A stretch of 34,078 bases of DNA from an uncultured Clostridia bacterium (GTDB taxonomy: Bacteria > Bacillota > Clostridia > TANB77 > CAG-465), in assembly GCA_944388575.1 (NCBI GenBank), contig CALXJF010000016.1, forward strand, positions 1 to 34,078, in the 5' to 3' direction. Below the pieces are notes generated by a model, which saw nothing but the letters and a program-made list of their open reading frames with translations, searched no databases and was not told the DNA's origin. The position numbers and the translations under genes were made by a program. Shown piece by piece: positions 28,427 to 34,078 of this stretch (positions are counted from its first letter, which is position 1; each line of letters opens with the position of its first letter).

Positions 28427-28456
28427 TAATACGTATGAACATATCAACAAAAATTT

Positions 28457-28603
28457 ATGCTAGTTAGAAAAAATAAAGAAAATCAGAAACTTACTCAAGA
28501 TTTTGAAAATTGGAAAAAACAGGCTAAAGAAAAAATTAATGATATGAAAAAAGGCAAACTTACTGAAAATGAAGTTTATGAATGGATTTTGAAAAATAAA
28601 TAA
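28457..28603 (+). CDS. Small charged ORF, possibly a gene remnant
   Basis: The 48-aa ORF is MLVRKNKENQKLTQ followed by FENWKKQAKEKINDMKKGKL and ENEVYEWILKNK. The helical Trp/Lys pattern resembles the C-terminal tails of proteins on clostridial mobile elements, and the lack of a good ribosome site suggests it is a truncated relic. It is closed by a clear terminator, so it was once part of a real transcript. Confidence 0.4.
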   Translation: MLVRKNKENQKLTQDFENWKKQAKEKINDMKKGKLTENEVYEWILKNK

Positions 28604-28608
28604 TCATT

Positions 28609-28643
28609 AAAGGATTTTGAAAATAAATATCTCAAAATCCTTT
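28609..28643 (+). terminator. Terminator after the small charged ORF
   Basis: A 12-bp perfect stem (28609-28620 with 28632-28643) with an 11-base loop and a T tract follows the stop at 28603 by 5 bases. It also separates the plus-strand ORF from the minus-strand radical SAM cluster. Confidence 0.8.
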
Positions 28644-28657
28644 TTATAATATACATT

Positions 28658-29011
28658 TTAGGCTAATTCGTATATAATTTTATTAATTACAAAGTATAAT
28701 ATTGCAGTTATAGCAATAATTCCTATTGTTACTAATATTTTCTTCTTTTTACTACTTTTACTCTTCTTAAAATAAATTATCAGTCCTATCAATAATGCTA
28801 TAGGAATTATAAAAGTTCTTGCTATTCTCCAAATTATAGTTACTGTACTTGGTCTAGCAACACCATATAATGAAACTGGTGGCGGTCCATATAAATCTTG
28901 TATATCTAATGCACTTGGATTTATAGCTGCGAAAATTTTATTTGGAAAAGATATAATTGCTAAAACTATTGCAACTATCACTTTTTTTACTTTTGAAATA
29001 AACTTTTTCAT
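28658..29011 (-). CDS. Exported two-helix membrane protein with YG-P motifs (candidate rSAM substrate C)
   Basis: The 117-aa protein has a basic start and hydrophobic signal segment ending at NKIFA (about residues 1-28), then DLYGPPPVSLYGVARPS, a membrane helix (about 62-81), a basic cytoplasmic loop KKSKSSKKKKI and a second helix (about 94-113). It is clearly a paralogue of the next upstream gene: the two share FIIPIALLIG(L/I)IIY(F/L)KKSKSSKK(K/R)KI. Here the YG motif occurs twice. It is co-directional with the radical SAM/SPASM gene, last in the cluster. TrbC/VirB2-type pilins share the signal plus two-helix layout, but no secretion genes are nearby. I infer that it is a target of the radical SAM enzyme. 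Confidence 0.75.
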   Translation of the reverse strand: MKKFISKVKKVIVAIVLAIISFPNKIFAAINPSALDIQDLYGPPPVSLYGVARPSTVTIIWRIARTFIIPIALLIGLIIYFKKSKSSKKKKILVTIGIIAITAILYFVINKIIYELA

Positions 29012-29021
29012 ATGTTCTTCC

Positions 29022-29354
29022 TTATATTACATTATTTATTATATAATTAATTACAAAATATAAAATTGCAAAAATACCTATTGTAATTAATACTGTAATA
29101 ATTTTTCTTTTCTTACTACTTTTGCTTTTTTTCAAATATATTATTATCCCTATTAATAAGGCTATTGGTATAATAAATATTCTACAAACATTCCATACAC
29201 TATTAATGAAATTATTTTTTACTGGTTCTGGATCAGGTATTCCATACATAGGGGTTATAGCCATATAATCTACTGCAAATACTTTTGTTGGTATTGTTAA
29301 TAAAAATGCACCTAGTCCTATTAAACCTTTTTTTATTCTTTCAACTAATTTCAT
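29022..29354 (-). CDS. Exported two-helix membrane protein with YG-P motif (candidate rSAM substrate B)
   Basis: The 110-aa protein has a signal segment with cleavage near TKVFA (about residue 27), then VDYMAITPMYGIPDPEPVKN, a first membrane helix (about 58-78), the basic loop KKSKSSKKRKI and a second helix (about 88-107). Sequence and layout match the 117-aa neighbour 10 bases downstream and, more distantly, the 103-aa protein upstream of the radical SAM gene. The Tyr-Gly-Ile-Pro-Asp-Pro segment lies 10 residues after the predicted cleavage site. It has a good AGGAGG site and begins 9 bases after the radical SAM stop. Confidence 0.78.
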   Translation of the reverse strand: MKLVERIKKGLIGLGAFLLTIPTKVFAVDYMAITPMYGIPDPEPVKNNFINSVWNVCRIFIIPIALLIGIIIYLKKSKSSKKRKIITVLITIGIFAILYFVINYIINNVI

Positions 29355-29363
29355 AAATACCTC

Positions 29364-30452
29364 CTACATCTCATTAATCATATTATAAGTACACTTATTT
29401 TGCTCATTATCAATAAAATTCCAAGTGTGAAAAGCTCCACCTAAACAATATTCCCATTGTTCACATTTGCCACATTCTTCACATTTTGTTCTGTCTTTAT
29501 TTCTAAACTCTTTATACTTGTTATCCCATACATCTTTAAAATTATCTGTTCTGATATTTCCTTGTATGAATCTTTTTATTCTAGGTACGTTAGGGCAAAC
29601 AAATAAATCACCATTATATAAAATACTTGCAACATTTATTCCAGTTCTACAATAAAAATAATGTTTTCTAACTTCCTTCTCATAATCTAATCCTAAAAAT
29701 CCAGGGCAACCATATGTAAGTTCTAGTCTTTTATCATTTTTCTTTGATTTAATAAAATCAAGTAATTGTCTTATTTCTTTTCCATTAAGCAATAAATCAT
29801 TATTTTCATTCGCTCTACCTATTGGATCCATTGAAACCAATCTCCACGAGTCCAACCCTAAATCTAACATTACATTGTATAGTTCATCTAATTGATTTAT
29901 ATTTTCTTTATGAAATACTGTAGTAACTTGAAGATGTTTTACAAAATCTGCCTCTTTTAATTTCTTTATATTATTAGTTATTATCTTATATGAACCAGGA
30001 ACTCCTCTAAATGTATTGTGCGTTTTCTCTAATCCATCAATACTTATAGAAATTGTTTCCATATTAGCCTTTCTTAATTTCTGGATATTTTCATCATTTA
30101 ATAAAATACCATTTGTAGTCATTCCCCAATGAAAACCTAGCTCATTTGTTGCATATTCCATTACTTCGCACAAATCTTGTCTAACCAAAGGTTCTCCACC
30201 TGTAACATTTATTAATATTTTACTTGCATCCATATCATTTGCTATTTGTTTAAAAGCTGATTTAATTTCCTCTGTTGTCAATTCTCCATCATATTTTTTC
30301 TTTTCAGCACTACTTCCACAATGCTTACATTTAGCATTACAAGTTAAAGTACATTCCCAGAATAAATCAATTAATGTATGTTTTTCTCTTTCTTGTTCTT
30401 TATAATTTTTCATTAAAGTTAATTCGCCTAATTTATATATCTTTTTTAACAT
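29364..30452 (-). CDS. Radical SAM/SPASM protein-modifying enzyme
   Basis: This 362-aa radical SAM enzyme has the 4Fe-4S motif Cys38-x3-Cys42-x2-Cys45 in WECTLTCNAKCKHCGSS, the SAM-binding GGEPLVRQDL, and SISIDGLEKTHNTFRG. The C-terminal SPASM domain has Cys residues in YGCPGF, YFYCRTG, FVCPN and the cluster CEECGKCEQWEYCLGG. SPASM enzymes commonly modify ribosomal peptides or proteins (thioether or C-C crosslinks). The fold and opening WECTLTCNAKCKHCGSS resemble the rSAM/lipoprotein system enzymes (TIGR04133, from memory). It sits between three small exported paralogues, one upstream and two downstream, all on one strand. The ATG at 30452 follows AAGGTGG. No sense CGG is present. Confidence 0.88.
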   Translation of the reverse strand: MLKKIYKLGELTLMKNYKEQEREKHTLIDLFWECTLTCNAKCKHCGSSAEKKKYDGELTTEEIKSAFKQIANDMDASKILINVTGGEPLVRQDLCEVMEYATNELGFHWGMTTNGILLNDENIQKLRKANMETISISIDGLEKTHNTFRGVPGSYKIITNNIKKLKEADFVKHLQVTTVFHKENINQLDELYNVMLDLGLDSWRLVSMDPIGRANENNDLLLNGKEIRQLLDFIKSKKNDKRLELTYGCPGFLGLDYEKEVRKHYFYCRTGINVASILYNGDLFVCPNVPRIKRFIQGNIRTDNFKDVWDNKYKEFRNKDRTKCEECGKCEQWEYCLGGAFHTWNFIDNEQNKCTYNMINEM

Positions 30453-30467
30453 TATTATTCCACCTTA

Positions 30468-30778
30468 TTAAAAAACATTTTTTATTAATATTCTAATTAG
30501 TATATAAGCTAAAACAACTCCTATACTTATAATTGTTTTTTTCAAAATACTGCCTGTGCTTTTTATTAAAAATACTATTAATCCAATTAGCATTATTACT
30601 GGTACTATTATTGTTAAAGCAATATTCTGTGAAGTCGAAGTTTCTCTAACAGGTTCAAAAACCCCATAATCACATACTGTTTCCATTTGTACATTTACTG
30701 CATATGCTTTTACAACTAATGCTTTTAAAGCTATAAAACCAGCCGTTAAAACTTTTCCTATTTTTTTAATATTTTCAT
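30468..30778 (-). CDS. Exported two-helix membrane protein, start in another frame across an A7 run (candidate rSAM substrate A)
   Basis: The reading from ATG 30686 gives only 72 aa (METVCDYGVFEPVRETST, then two membrane helices), but the same frame continues upstream as KKIGKVLTAGFIALKALVVK and AYAVNVQ, a clear signal peptide. The apparent start, ATG AAA ATA TTA AAA AAA at 30778, is one base out of frame and meets TAG. The A7 run there is a classical -1 slippery heptamer A-AAA-AAA directly before the stop, so shifting or transcript slippage would produce a 103-aa protein like its two paralogues. Alternatively one A has been lost. The motif Asp-Tyr-Gly-Val-Phe-Glu-Pro follows the predicted cleavage site. 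This lies just upstream of the radical SAM gene. Confidence 0.65.
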
Positions 30779-30799
30779 AGATAAAATTAACTCCCTCTA

Positions 30800-30904
30800 T
30801 TATTTAGACGATTTATGATGTCGTTTTTGTTGGTTTTTTACCAAAATAATTCCAAAAATTATTGTTAATATTAGAAATATAGCAGAAACACTAAGCAAGC
30901 TCAT
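30800..30904 (-). CDS. 34-aa single-helix membrane peptide
   Basis: The ORF is MSLLSVSAIFLILTIIFGI followed by ILVKNQQKRHHKSSK: one membrane helix and a short basic tail. It starts 12 bases after the stop of the sigma-factor gene and ends 22 bases before the next gene. It is probably translated with the sigma factor. Function is unknown; an anti-sigma or chaperone role is possible but not shown. Confidence 0.5.
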   Translation of the reverse strand: MSLLSVSAIFLILTIIFGIILVKNQQKRHHKSSK

Positions 30905-30915
30905 TTCAATCTTAT

Positions 30916-31626
30916 TTATTGAATTGTTGCAGTTGTACTTTCAGTAGCAAATCCATCTATTGAAGATGGTGCTATAGAATCAATTGTTTGATGCCCATTT
31001 TGCTTTGTATTATTCGTTATATCTGTTTTTGATGATTTTTCTTCAATTTTAGTTTTACTTTTTATATATAATAATGAAGTTATAATAAACATAGATAAGT
31101 TACTTAATAATATTTTTAATGTATGTACGGATTTATAATATTTCCATTGTACTGTTGCTGTTGGCATACCTAATATAAGTCCAATTTCTTTAAAAGTAAA
31201 ATTTGTAAGAACTTTTAATGAAACAATTTCCTTCTCTTTTTTTTCTAAACCATCTATCATTTTATTATAAGTATTTCTATCAATTATTTCGTTTATTTTA
31301 TTGTCCTTGTCAGGAATATCATATATTGTATCTATGTCAATATCGTTATGTTGTTTTCTTAAATAATCTATCGTTTGATTTTTGGTTATAGTATATAGCC
31401 AACTTAATTCATTATTATTTGGTATATTTTCAATAGGACTTTGTAAAATTTTTAGAAAAATCATTTGAGATATTTCTTCAGCTATATTTTTATCTTTTAC
31501 TATAATAAATGAAATGTTTATAACTAACTTTTGATATTTGACATATAGTTCTTCTATCGCTGTTTTTTCTCCACTCTTTATCTTTTGGAATATATTATGA
31601 ATTTCAACTTTATTTAAATCTTTCAT
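30916..31626 (-). CDS. ECF-like sigma factor with C-terminal membrane helix
   Basis: The 236-aa protein has sigma region 2 (about 20-90: EELYVKYQKLVINISFIIV, then KNIAEEISQMIFLKIL and WLYTITKNQTIDYLRK) and region 4 (about 125-175: KEKEIVSLKVLTNFTFKEIG, then TVQWKYYKSVHTLK), as in extracytoplasmic-function sigma factors. Unusually, it continues through a short hydrophobic segment (LSMFIITSLLYI, about 183-194) into a 40-residue Ser/Thr-rich tail, which would sit outside the cell. A tethered sigma factor would need release or would act at the membrane. It is the first clear gene of the radical SAM cluster on this strand and probably directs it. Confidence 0.85.
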   Translation of the reverse strand: MKDLNKVEIHNIFQKIKSGEKTAIEELYVKYQKLVINISFIIVKDKNIAEEISQMIFLKILQSPIENIPNNNELSWLYTITKNQTIDYLRKQHNDIDIDTIYDIPDKDNKINEIIDRNTYNKMIDGLEKKEKEIVSLKVLTNFTFKEIGLILGMPTATVQWKYYKSVHTLKILLSNLSMFIITSLLYIKSKTKIEEKSSKTDITNNTKQNGHQTIDSIAPSSIDGFATESTTATIQ

Positions 31627-31682
31627 ATCATTACTATTAATTATTCTCCATTTCTCATTTTTCGATTTTAATATACCATATT

Positions 31683-31871
31683 TTATATTTTTTTACAACA
31701 TACTTTTGGTATCAAATTTGACTTTTTTCTTTTTGAGTACAAACTTTTTATATATTCTGCTAATATACCTACACAAATCATACATATCCCAAATGCTATA
31801 AGCATTATAATTTGGGCATTTCTTTCCTTTTCTGGCAATCCCATTAAGTAAAAAAAATAATCACTCCACAT
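31683..31871 (-). CDS. Small single-pass membrane protein
   Basis: The 62-aa protein has an amphipathic N-terminus (MWSDYFFYLMGLPEKERN), one membrane helix (about 21-40, IIMLIAFGICMICVGILAEY) and a basic tail ending in PKVCCKKI. It lies 56 bases upstream of the sigma-factor gene on the same strand. It might be the cognate membrane regulator, but no anti-sigma motif is seen. The ribosome site (AGAAGTGAT) is moderate. Confidence 0.55.
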   Translation of the reverse strand: MWSDYFFYLMGLPEKERNAQIIMLIAFGICMICVGILAEYIKSLYSKRKKSNLIPKVCCKKI

Positions 31872-31892
31872 CTATATCACTTCTTGTTATTT

Positions 31893-31913
31893 TATAACTG
31901 TTTTTCAGTTATA
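31893..31913. promoter_or_regulatory. Small palindrome between divergent genes
   Basis: TATAACTG (31893-31900) and CAGTTATA (31906-31913) form an 8-bp inverted repeat with a 5-base T loop, in the 109-base gap between the small membrane gene and the ribbon-helix-helix gene. It may be an operator for the latter. Confidence 0.4.
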
Positions 31914-31980
31914 TTTTATATACCATATTTTAAGTATAATTTCAATAGATATAAAAATAATATGAAAATAGGTTATATTT

Positions 31981-32169
31981 ATGGAAAAGTTTGTGATGAA
32001 AAAATCTACAGAAGCAAATATTTATAAGAGTATTAGATTTCCAGTTGAAATAAATTCTCAAATTATTGATATTGTAGAAAAAGCTAACAAAGGGCTAGAT
32101 AAAAAAGAATATTCTTTCAATGGCTTTGTTGTTTCAGCTTGTGAATTTGCTTTAAAACATATGAAATAA
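31981..32169 (+). CDS. Ribbon-helix-helix-like DNA-binding protein (YlcI/YnfO- or CopG-like)
   Basis: The 62-aa protein contains IYKSIRFPVEINSQIIDIVE, a beta strand then helix, and YSFNGFVVSACEFALKHMK, a second helix with the N-x-F-V-x-x-A-x-x-x-A pattern of Arc/CopG-like relatives. Such proteins autoregulate mobilization and toxin-antitoxin genes. It faces the MobV gene (convergent, 27 bases apart) and is likely part of the same mobile element. Met1 or Met6 could be the start. Confidence 0.65.
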   Translation: MEKFVMKKSTEANIYKSIRFPVEINSQIIDIVEKANKGLDKKEYSFNGFVVSACEFALKHMK

Positions 32170-32200
32170 TAAGGAGCAAACCCATAAGTTTGTTCCTTAT
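32169..32200. terminator. Bidirectional terminator between the RHH gene and mobV
   Basis: A 13-bp stem with one G-U pair (32169-32181 with 32188-32200) and a 6-base loop lies between convergent genes, starting at the stop of the ribbon-helix-helix gene and ending inside the last codons of the relaxase gene. Confidence 0.65.
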
Positions 32201-33384
32201 CTTTCCATTTCTAAATCTTTTTCTCTTTCTTCTCGCTTAATTTGTTCTTCTGCATCTAAATAAGTTCTTGTTTCTCTTTCAAAATCCCTAATTAAAGTAT
32301 CTCCTGTACCCATATCAAAGTTTACACAGATCCATTCTATAAATTTATGGATAGTTTCTCTAAATTTGTCTATAACCTTATGCAAATAGCCATTTTCTTT
32401 TTCTAATTTATTAATTCTATATTCGTATTTCCATTCCAAATTATCTTCTTTTTGTTTATATTCAGCCTTTATATTATCTACTTGCTTATGCAAATCTATA
32501 TTGTCAGCCATAATCTTGTTTCTCTCTTTTTGATACTTTTCTGCTTCTTCTACCATTTTAGCTTGTCTTAATAATTGTTGGTGCATTAATAAATTATTTT
32601 GATATAATTCGTTTATTAAATCATCTTTTGGTTTTATAATATCTTCTAAAATCTTTTCATCTCTTTTCTTTGATAATCTATTTATATTAATATCAGTAAT
32701 ATTTGGAACATCTGGTAATTCTAATTTCATATTTTGTAGTTTTTCTTTTGTCTTGTCAAAATTAGTTATTTCTTTATATTCTTTTATATCAATATGTTCT
32801 CTTTCTGTTTCTTCTTTTGGTACACCTCTTTCTAATTCAAAACTGTGTGAAGTCATATATTGATAAAAAGCATCTTGTAATCTCCTATAACTATCTTTTT
32901 CTTTCCAAAATTCGCTACAAGCTAGTTTATCAATGTTATTTCCTTTTTTATCTTGTGTATGAACTACAGGTAGAAAAATTAAGTGCATATGTGGAGTTTC
33001 CTCGTCCATATGCACTTTCGCAGACATTATATATTGTTCACCTAAATTTTTATATTCAGCCACAAAATTGTATGCTGTTTCGAAGTATCTTTTTGTTTCT
33101 TCTTCGCCTATTTCTTCAAAGAATTGTTTATCAGAAGTAATAATATATTCACAAGCTATATTGCTAACTGTTTTTATTTGACCTTTCAAATTATATTTTT
33201 CTCTCATCATATCAAATTCTTTGTCATATCTGTATTTAGGACTTTTCAATGAGTAATTCAAGTATGTTCTTTCCTTATCTATATTATCATTTGAATAATT
33301 TTTATTTCTTCTTTCGTTGTGTCTGTATATTCCTTTTAAATTTTCTCTTTTGTATTTTGTGTTTCTAATAATCGCAAAACTCAT
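32197..33384 (-). CDS. MobV-family relaxase (Pre/Mob plasmid recombination protein)
   Basis: This 395-aa relaxase nicks oriT during plasmid or element mobilization. The N-terminal domain shows motif I-like YRHNERRNKNYSNDNIDKER, and the metal-binding motif HMDEETPHMHLIFLP near residue 128. The C-terminal half (about 240-345) is a long charged coiled coil, as in MobV proteins. The length is typical of small mobilizable elements. The ATG follows GAAGGAGG. Upstream lies a hairpin-rich noncoding block, the expected position of oriT. No conjugation genes are seen, so transfer would need a helper. Confidence 0.92.
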   Translation of the reverse strand: MSFAIIRNTKYKRENLKGIYRHNERRNKNYSNDNIDKERTYLNYSLKSPKYRYDKEFDMMREKYNLKGQIKTVSNIACEYIITSDKQFFEEIGEEETKRYFETAYNFVAEYKNLGEQYIMSAKVHMDEETPHMHLIFLPVVHTQDKKGNNIDKLACSEFWKEKDSYRRLQDAFYQYMTSHSFELERGVPKEETEREHIDIKEYKEITNFDKTKEKLQNMKLELPDVPNITDININRLSKKRDEKILEDIIKPKDDLINELYQNNLLMHQQLLRQAKMVEEAEKYQKERNKIMADNIDLHKQVDNIKAEYKQKEDNLEWKYEYRINKLEKENGYLHKVIDKFRETIHKFIEWICVNFDMGTGDTLIRDFERETRTYLDAEEQIKREEREKDLEMER

Positions 33385-33437
33385 CTCTAAAACCTCCTTC
33401 TAAATTTTTAGCCGATTTTTTCAGCTCGTATAATGGG

Positions 33438-33837
33438 CGATAGCTTGGCTATCGTAAGAGGTAATACAAGCAAAATGCAAGGTATTATTATAGTAGCTAC
33501 TATGAGTTTACTAACTGCTTCCACACCTCGCATTTTTACTTTGTATTGTAACACACTACAACACTTTTTTACGCTATTGCTAAAAAGTGTCAGTGTGGCA
33601 GGAGTTCCTGCACCCCCAAAAACTAAAAATAGCTTTACTGTATTTTTAGTTTTTCCATAAAAATATAACAAGTATATTTTTATGCTTACCCATAATTTGC
33701 TATACGCAATTTATGGGTAAGAGAGCCAAGAAAAACATTTTATATTTTTTCTTGACTCATTTTGAAACCTACTCGGTTTCAAAATCCCAAAATAAAAGCA
33801 TAGGTTTTACTTTTAACAAAACCTACACTTTTATTTT
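33438..33837. repeat. Dense hairpin array upstream of mobV, candidate oriT
   Basis: About nine stem-loops lie in 400 bp. They are 33438-33454 (7-bp stem), the palindrome 33490-33503, 33561-33590, 33618-33654 (14-bp perfect stem), 33659-33681 (9 bp), 33685-33721 (11 bp plus inner pairs), 33727-33754 (9 bp), 33759-33785 (11-bp perfect stem, 5-base loop) and 33789-33837 (18 of 20 paired). Open frames across it on both strands are by-products of the palindromes and have no ribosome sites. The position directly upstream of a MobV gene suggests that the origin of transfer is in this block, but the nick sequence was not recognised. Confidence 0.6.
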
Positions 33838-33852
33838 GTTTTATAGCGACTA

Positions 33853-34078
33853 CTACGATGTAAAATTATTATTTGCATATAAGCTATTCCAATCAAAGCC
33901 TTCTTTTTCATAATCTCGTTGTTCATAATTGCAATACCCTTTATTATTATTTTTATATTTATTTATATTATATTTATTATCCTTAAACTTTTCTTCAATA
34001 GGGTATTAGTTTTCTAATATCTACTTCTTTACTATTTTCTTTATATACCATTTCAATATTTATATAACCTTTATCTTT
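33853..34078 (-). CDS. C-terminal part of a mobile-element protein, partial and frameshifted
   Basis: The frame entering from the window edge reads GYINIEMVYKENSKEVDIRK, then Leu-Ile-Pro-Tyr and TGA at 33995-33997. Skipping one base at the TGA opens a frame that runs to 33853 with EEKFKDNKYN, an Asn/Lys-rich linker and NYEQRDYEKEGFDWNSLYAN. That end, with Gln-Arg-Asp/Glu-Tyr and a short aromatic tail, is of a kind seen at the C-termini of clostridial mobile-element proteins. No start codon with a ribosome site exists for the second segment, so it is probably the true tail of the same gene. The family is not identified. Confidence 0.4.

Follow-up and report, generated by a model that had tools for sequence, protein, structure and literature searches.

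A probable TIGR04133-type radical SAM/SPASM modification system with small membrane-hairpin proteins carrying a Tyr-Gly-x-Pro element in uncultured Clostridia

The gene cluster and its encoded proteins

Contig CALXJF010000016.1 (assembly GCA_944388575.1) of an uncultured Clostridia bacterium was analyzed over 34,078 nucleotides (nt), and this whole stretch is termed the window. A gene cluster is found at 28.6–31.6 kb on the minus strand. In order of transcription it encodes an extracytoplasmic function (ECF)-type sigma factor, a 34 amino acid (aa) open reading frame with a single transmembrane (TM) helix, a small protein with the motif DYGVFEP, a radical S-adenosylmethionine (SAM) enzyme with a SPASM domain, and two small proteins with the motifs PMYGIPDP and DLYGPPPVSLYGVARP. 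The three small proteins are termed substrates A, B and C. The cluster is a real and strongly linked protein-modification system, i.e. a TIGR04133-type variant with membrane-hairpin substrates. The source assembly spans 1.47 Mb, gives 14 radical SAM matches and has uncultured Clostridia as its nearest relatives. The enzyme, the substrates and their motifs are located as follows.

29364..30452, minus strand: radical SAM/SPASM enzyme, predicted to be protein-modifying, TIGR04133-like, 362 aa (TIGR04133, PF04055 and PF13186 matches, invariant cysteines)
30468..30686, minus strand: substrate A as an ATG-started open reading frame, DYGVFEP and two TM helices, 72 aa (substrate profile; open signal-peptide codons upstream, no in-frame start)
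30651..30671, minus strand: motif D-Y-G-V-F-E-P of substrate A (translation)
29022..29354, minus strand: substrate B, signal peptide, PMYGIPDP linker, two TM helices and basic loop, 110 aa (alignment with 29 relatives; profile match 9.5e-38)
29229..29249, minus strand: motif M36-Y-G-I-P-D-P42 of substrate B (alignment)
28658..29011, minus strand: substrate C, the design of B with two motif copies, 117 aa (alignment; profile match 1.6e-37; AF2 hairpin)
28877..28894, minus strand: motif L40-Y-G-P-P-P45, first copy in substrate C (alignment)
28850..28870, minus strand: motif L48-Y-G-V-A-R-P54, second copy in substrate C (alignment)

Gaps of 9–15 bases separate the genes of substrate A, the enzyme, substrate B and substrate C, and the last three each have a plausible ribosome-binding site ahead of the start codon. 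Thus the four genes look like one operon.

The best NCBIfam model for the enzyme is TIGR04133 ("rSAM_w_lipo", the Bacteroidota rSAM/lipoprotein family), with a score of 333.7 bits and an E-value of 1.1e-99; the runner-up family scores 172 bits. The curated TIGR04133 cut-off of 425 bits is not reached by the window enzyme, nor in any of 238 genomes of the order, so that the enzyme, as a diverged relative, formally stands outside the family. It displays the Pfam domains PF04055 (E-value = 2.4e-25) and PF13186 (SPASM, E-value = 5.6e-10), and alignment with 16 relatives shows that the CxxxCxxC motif and the SPASM cysteines are invariant. A scan of the genome collection detected 22 close relatives with 70–97% identity, all on contigs binned as uncultured Clostridia. 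In a tree the enzyme forms one group with loci L053–L055, which include annotated TIGR04133 members (support 95/92). Comparison of the enzyme model with the PDB gave only generic SPASM maturases and maturases of ribosomally synthesized and post-translationally modified peptides (RiPPs), i.e. SuiB, CteB, SkfB, anSME and PqqE, which is uninformative on the chemistry. An amphipathic N-terminal helix was considered as a membrane tether and dropped, as it is inconsistent across the family.

Substrates B and C begin with a basic hydrophobic N-terminal helix that ends in K-[IV]-F-A. Next come the linker with the motif and two TM helices, between which lies a KKSKSSKKK loop. AF2 models a two-helix hairpin, with a predicted local distance difference test (pLDDT) value above 90 in the helices, after the N-terminal helix and a loosely modelled motif-bearing linker. 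By the positive-inside rule, the motif would be outside the cell after signal-peptide cleavage. When substrate B is aligned with 29 relatives, the near-invariant columns are few: the motif Tyr and Gly (both at least 90% conserved), a Lys that closes the signal peptide, one Gly within the first TM helix, and Lys residues of the basic loop. There is no conserved Cys near the motif in these 30 proteins, and thus no Cys-rich core of the ranthipeptide or sactipeptide kind. The 30 proteins show no consistent Pfam family, and a Foldseek comparison of the hairpin with the PDB gave no match under an E-value of 1.

The initial annotation described the enzyme as flanked by three exported YG-P paralogues. 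This holds for the enzyme and for substrates B and C; the signal peptide of substrate A, however, is out of frame in the window. Substrate A is found as an ATG-started open reading frame (30468–30686) that lacks a signal peptide, and the signal-peptide codons upstream of it stay open. The homologous start ATG near position 30778 runs into an early stop codon in its own frame. This is due to a one-nt deletion near position 30760, where a T is missing relative to loci L009, L011 and L028; the relatives have AAATTAGG and the window has AAATAGG. Intact homologues are present at L009:2634-2948, L011:5667-5978 and L028:931-1242. The change is either a real frameshift in the genome or an assembly error.

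Association of the enzyme with Tyr-Gly proteins

A YG-P-like element soon after the export signal had been described from the three window proteins, and it is borne out in the relatives. Y[GA] is present in the linker of all 39 two-helix relatives, where 2000 shuffles gave 8.8 on average and never more than 18. Y[GA]x(1-3)P is present in 32 of them (expectation 2.6, maximum 8). The enrichment is overstated by the shuffle test because the set was built partly via YG searches. Among 49 motif sites, Tyr is found in all, followed by Gly in 43 and by Ala in six. The residue preceding Tyr is most commonly Leu (23 of 49) or Met (8 of 49), and Asp and Glu also occur. The position directly after Tyr is nearly fixed as Gly, whereas the next one is varied (V, P, I, M, S, L, K). 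The downstream Pro is missing at a few sites, e.g. at loci L025 and L041.

The 238 genomes of the order were searched for the enzyme and with the substrate profile. The enzyme is present in 24 genomes, the profile in 19 and both in 17 (hypergeometric P = 1.4e-18). In one genome with a profile match only (G812), the adjoining enzyme gene is broken by a frameshift. In the other (G862) the match is confined to the TM region and looks like a false match. Enzyme genomes that have no profile match display YG-P neighbours of other kinds. These are lipoproteins in L040 and L082, a one-helix protein in L077, and two-helix proteins in L090 and in L034, the latter without a clear signal peptide. The neighbour in L036 carries RCLYGCPMA, and that in L093 is soluble and carries VYGTP. 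Thus the genome-neighbourhood check proposed with the initial annotation shows YG-P proteins with the enzyme almost always, the exception being L024.

A Y[G/A]-x(1-3)-P neighbour is found at almost every enzyme locus, and its scaffold may be two-helix, one-helix, lipoprotein or soluble. The motif is kept next to the enzyme across unrelated scaffolds, and therefore the Tyr-Gly/Ala site, not the scaffold, is the constant part. TIGR04133 relatives in other Clostridia (L037, L042–L051) adjoin lipoproteins with one to four YGPP units, and the L038 enzyme adjoins a lipoprotein with GCGMYGPPP. It is very probable that the enzyme modifies the neighbouring YG proteins, and "an unusual modification system for surface proteins", as the cluster was initially termed, is a fair summary.

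Two of these loci have unusual arrangements. L090:1158-4005 has five YG-P membrane proteins around a single enzyme, one of them with repeated DIYGPAPDP units, which suggests rapid substrate expansion. At L036:886-2955 a TIGR04133-like enzyme seems to carry a fused JAB-type peptidase-like domain (HSHP) at its C-terminus, and the RCLYGCPMA neighbour has, as judged by eye, a beta-grasp-like N-terminus.

The mobile module and horizontal spread

Three further genes are located upstream of substrate A. The 34 aa open reading frame and the MobV relaxase gene were overlooked in the initial annotation.

30800..30904, minus strand: 34 aa single-TM open reading frame MSLLSVSAIFLILTIIFGIILVKNQQKRHHKSSK (frame conserved in L009, L011 and L028; optional, module-specific)
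30916..31626, minus strand: ECF-type sigma factor, hydrophobic segment at the C-terminus followed by a conserved tail (PF04542, TIGR02937; optional, module-specific)
32197..33384, minus strand: MobV relaxase that travels with the module (PF01076 E-value = 1.7e-46, MobV 130.6 bits)

The sigma factor matches PF04542 (E-value = 2.6e-8) and TIGR02937, and has, beyond region 4, a hydrophobic stretch that its relatives also conserve. It does head the cluster in the window, as first described, but it is not generally part of the system. Among about 40 loci it is restricted to the window, L009–L011 and L028, and the 34 aa open reading frame, which is positioned between it and substrate A, occurs only in the same closest loci. 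The enzyme and substrates are found in many settings that lack the sigma factor, the 34 aa open reading frame and MobV. The sigma factor is therefore a feature of one mobile module, and the tethered protein may perhaps be a regulator of that module.

The DNA common to the window and L011 extends from 28428 to about 34072 and includes the MobV relaxase; that common to the window and L009 spans 28437–33399. A MobV-carrying module (window positions 28428–34078) is thus shared with L009–L011 and is cut off by the end of the contig. A search for terminal repeats of the module gave no convincing pair, and the contig stops at the window end. An Rfam scan of 28–34 kb gave no matches and a tRNA search of the window found none. 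A phage or viral origin was rejected, as there is a single weak match (26% identity) in phage records and none in viral contigs.

L026:396-6046, on a contig that also holds L088, encodes an enzyme of 74% identity and at least five two-helix YG-P proteins. Twelve of the 14 in-frame UGA codons of this enzyme align with Gly, which indicates that UGA is read as Gly, and the motif Gly is encoded by UGA in all five substrates. The Clostridia genome binned with L026 has an rpoB gene free of in-frame stop codons, i.e. it uses the standard code. Absconditabacteria and Gracilibacteria use UGA as a Gly codon, and L026 is probably a co-binned contig from such an organism. This points to transfer of the system between such an organism and Clostridia.

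Possible reaction at the Tyr-Gly site and comparison with known systems

The relatives search gave an enzyme from Nostoc sp. C057 that belongs to TIGR04103 (853 bits). This family we take to be the group that holds PlpX, whose InterPro entry, IPR026482, presumably corresponds to it. The Nostoc enzyme adjoins a Nif11 precursor that ends in GGRGSIALYGLPPELF (ALYGLPPELF) and a downstream 71 aa protein. PlpX is a SPASM splicease that cuts tyramine out of Xaa-Tyr-Gly, so that an alpha-ketoamide stays behind (PMC11002830). The sites of PlpXY include MYG and LYG, the tags used include PIRPLYGLPI and, with an engineered G, AVAAGYGVVFP, and a RiPP leader is not needed for splicing (PMC10533398). The motif sites of the substrates likewise display X-Tyr-Gly, with Gly at 43 of the 49. 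A maximum-likelihood tree places TIGR04103, GDL and TIGR04133 enzymes together (99/91), apart from MftC, PqqE and TIGR04347, although the outgroups are few and long-branched and some joins are possibly false.

The X-Tyr-[Gly/Ala] motif shared with spliceotides points to a specific reaction and not to general decoration of Tyr or Pro, a point missed in the initial annotation. The common site and the kinship with TIGR04103 enzymes make tyramine excision the leading guess for the chemistry, at about even odds as judged from sequence. As an overall explanation, it may equally well be true as not that a TIGR04133-type enzyme carries out a splicease-type reaction at X-Tyr-[Gly/Ala]-x-x-Pro in the N-terminal linkers of adjoining small membrane proteins.

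The preprotein would carry the conserved basic signal peptide, which possibly is also a recognition element. Radical SAM enzymes are cytosolic, and for this reason the enzyme would act on the Tyr of the unfolded linker before or during Sec export. A tyramine equivalent would be removed and the backbone rejoined, so that X becomes an alpha-keto-beta-amino residue with a change of -135.07 Da per site, as suggested by the motif and the PlpX-type kinship. Signal peptidase would then free the N-terminus outside the cell, and according to the predicted topology the hairpin would anchor the product in the membrane with its basic loop in the cytosol. A surface ketoamide might, speculatively, be a covalent trap or inhibitor of proteases or other nucleophiles, or a covalent anchor; such a surface electrophile function is improbable. 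The combined picture, in which integral-membrane proteins are backbone-spliced before export to give surface alpha-ketoamide electrophiles, with spread in gut Clostridia partly on a mobile module and passage into or from a UGA=Gly bacterium, is plausible but somewhat doubtful.

In addition to the limits of the tree, several points weigh against splicing or against the linkage itself. The window enzyme has only about 27% identity to the Nostoc TIGR04103 enzyme, and at 124.2 bits against a cut-off of 725 it is not a TIGR04103 member. The window substrates lack a Nif11/NHLP leader, and NCBIfam and Pfam scans gave no match like PlpY or a RiPP recognition element (RRE) among the window cluster proteins. 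Six of the 49 sites are YA instead of YG, and X includes Asp and Glu, which are not among the splicease X residues documented in PMC10533398 and PMC11002830. The SPASM half of the enzyme is modelled at low confidence (mean pLDDT 69), which precludes an active-site comparison. The L024 enzyme locus has no intact YG neighbour.

The enzyme may instead change the YG motif by some other radical reaction. The Tyr ring could, for example, be bonded to the side chain two positions further on, giving a three-residue aromatic cyclophane, or Tyr could be crosslinked in a different way; SPASM enzymes of the triceptide group carry out such reactions. Many SPASM enzymes form Tyr or Trp crosslinks, Y-G-x suits the aromatic-X-X triplet, and the closest folds are those of RiPP maturases such as SuiB. 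However, the varied second position after Tyr and the almost fixed Gly at the first are the reverse of what a crosslink to the second residue predicts, and enzyme kinship and motif point to TIGR04103; a reaction of this kind is thus unlikely, though the better placed of the alternatives. A subtler change, such as epimerisation, Tyr desaturation or mycofactocin-related chemistry, is less likely still. MftC, too, targets an X-Tyr unit, and its family gives one of the better scores (147.7 bits), but its target is a C-terminal Tyr whereas the window sites are internal, and it falls outside the TIGR04103/TIGR04133 tree group. In a third alternative the YG-P proteins belong to a mobile element or a secretion apparatus, as two-helix proteins of the pilin or holin kind, and the enzyme is a mere neighbour or acts on another substrate. 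This is suggested by a design resembling VirB2-type pilins and by the nearby MobV relaxase, but is very improbable given that the proteins share no common Pfam family, VirB2/TrbC match or PDB fold match, that the enzyme association persists in many genomic settings that lack MobV, and that scaffold types change while the motif stays.

If tyramine excision is correct, backbone-edited beta-residues would no longer be confined to peptides and soluble proteins but would occur in membrane proteins of gut Clostridia as well. The products would also offer a ready bioorthogonal handle, i.e. tetrazine ligation (PMC10533398) for GYG-type sites and, for ketoamides of other kinds, aminooxy probes. The substrates form a family that Pfam lacks, and in that case it could be named by function.

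Among known systems, mycofactocin MftC resembles the window enzyme in being a SPASM enzyme with an X-Tyr unit as target, but is outside its tree group; MftC acts on a C-terminal Val-Tyr together with the chaperone MftB. The TIGR03913 GDL-motif/DUF1843 systems (Azospirillum, Aureibacter) are in the tree group of TIGR04103 and have tandem small precursors with N-terminal YG/YA. Unlike the window substrates, the DUF1843 precursors have neither an export signal nor a membrane anchor, and they lack the Pro pattern downstream. At L058:2183-2896 and L059:561-1276, GDL-type radical SAM enzymes adjoin DUF1843 proteins in tandem whose N-terminal YG/YA gives them the look of YG substrates for this same group of enzymes.

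The TIGR04103/PlpX spliceotide systems resemble the window in having a SPASM enzyme of the same tree group and the same L/M-Y-G-x-P substrate site. They differ in the low enzyme identity given above and in their leader and PlpY-like partner, and the window substrates are Sec-exported membrane proteins. At L052:344-3003 a TIGR04103-like enzyme adjoins a 315 aa protein with about ten YG-[VIA] units, mostly followed by Pro, which is a candidate multi-site substrate.

The TIGR04133/TIGR04134 systems are closest, with TIGR04133 the best enzyme family by a wide margin and exported substrates encoded next door. The annotated TIGR04133 enzymes of Parabacteroides distasonis and Treponema saccharophilum adjoin TIGR04134 lipoproteins with CEYGSPHAN and CYGMPEN, respectively, and a TIGR04133 copy in Phocaeicola that has no annotation adjoins a lipoprotein with CEYGTPSAD. 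YG-x-P is at or just after the lipobox in all three, and the parallel to Bacteroidota rSAM/lipoprotein systems drawn in the initial annotation therefore holds. The window substrates also display YG-x-P soon after the export signal. They differ in that they are two-helix proteins, often with several paralogues per locus, and have no TIGR04134 match, whereas the lipoproteins of L053 and L055 do match; the window enzyme in turn scores 334 bits against the cut-off of 425. TIGR04133 is a hypothetical equivalog in NCBIfam with its chemistry unstated, and the X-Tyr-Gly-x-Pro site supplies a concrete, testable reaction. This common site joins two rSAM families that have been annotated separately.

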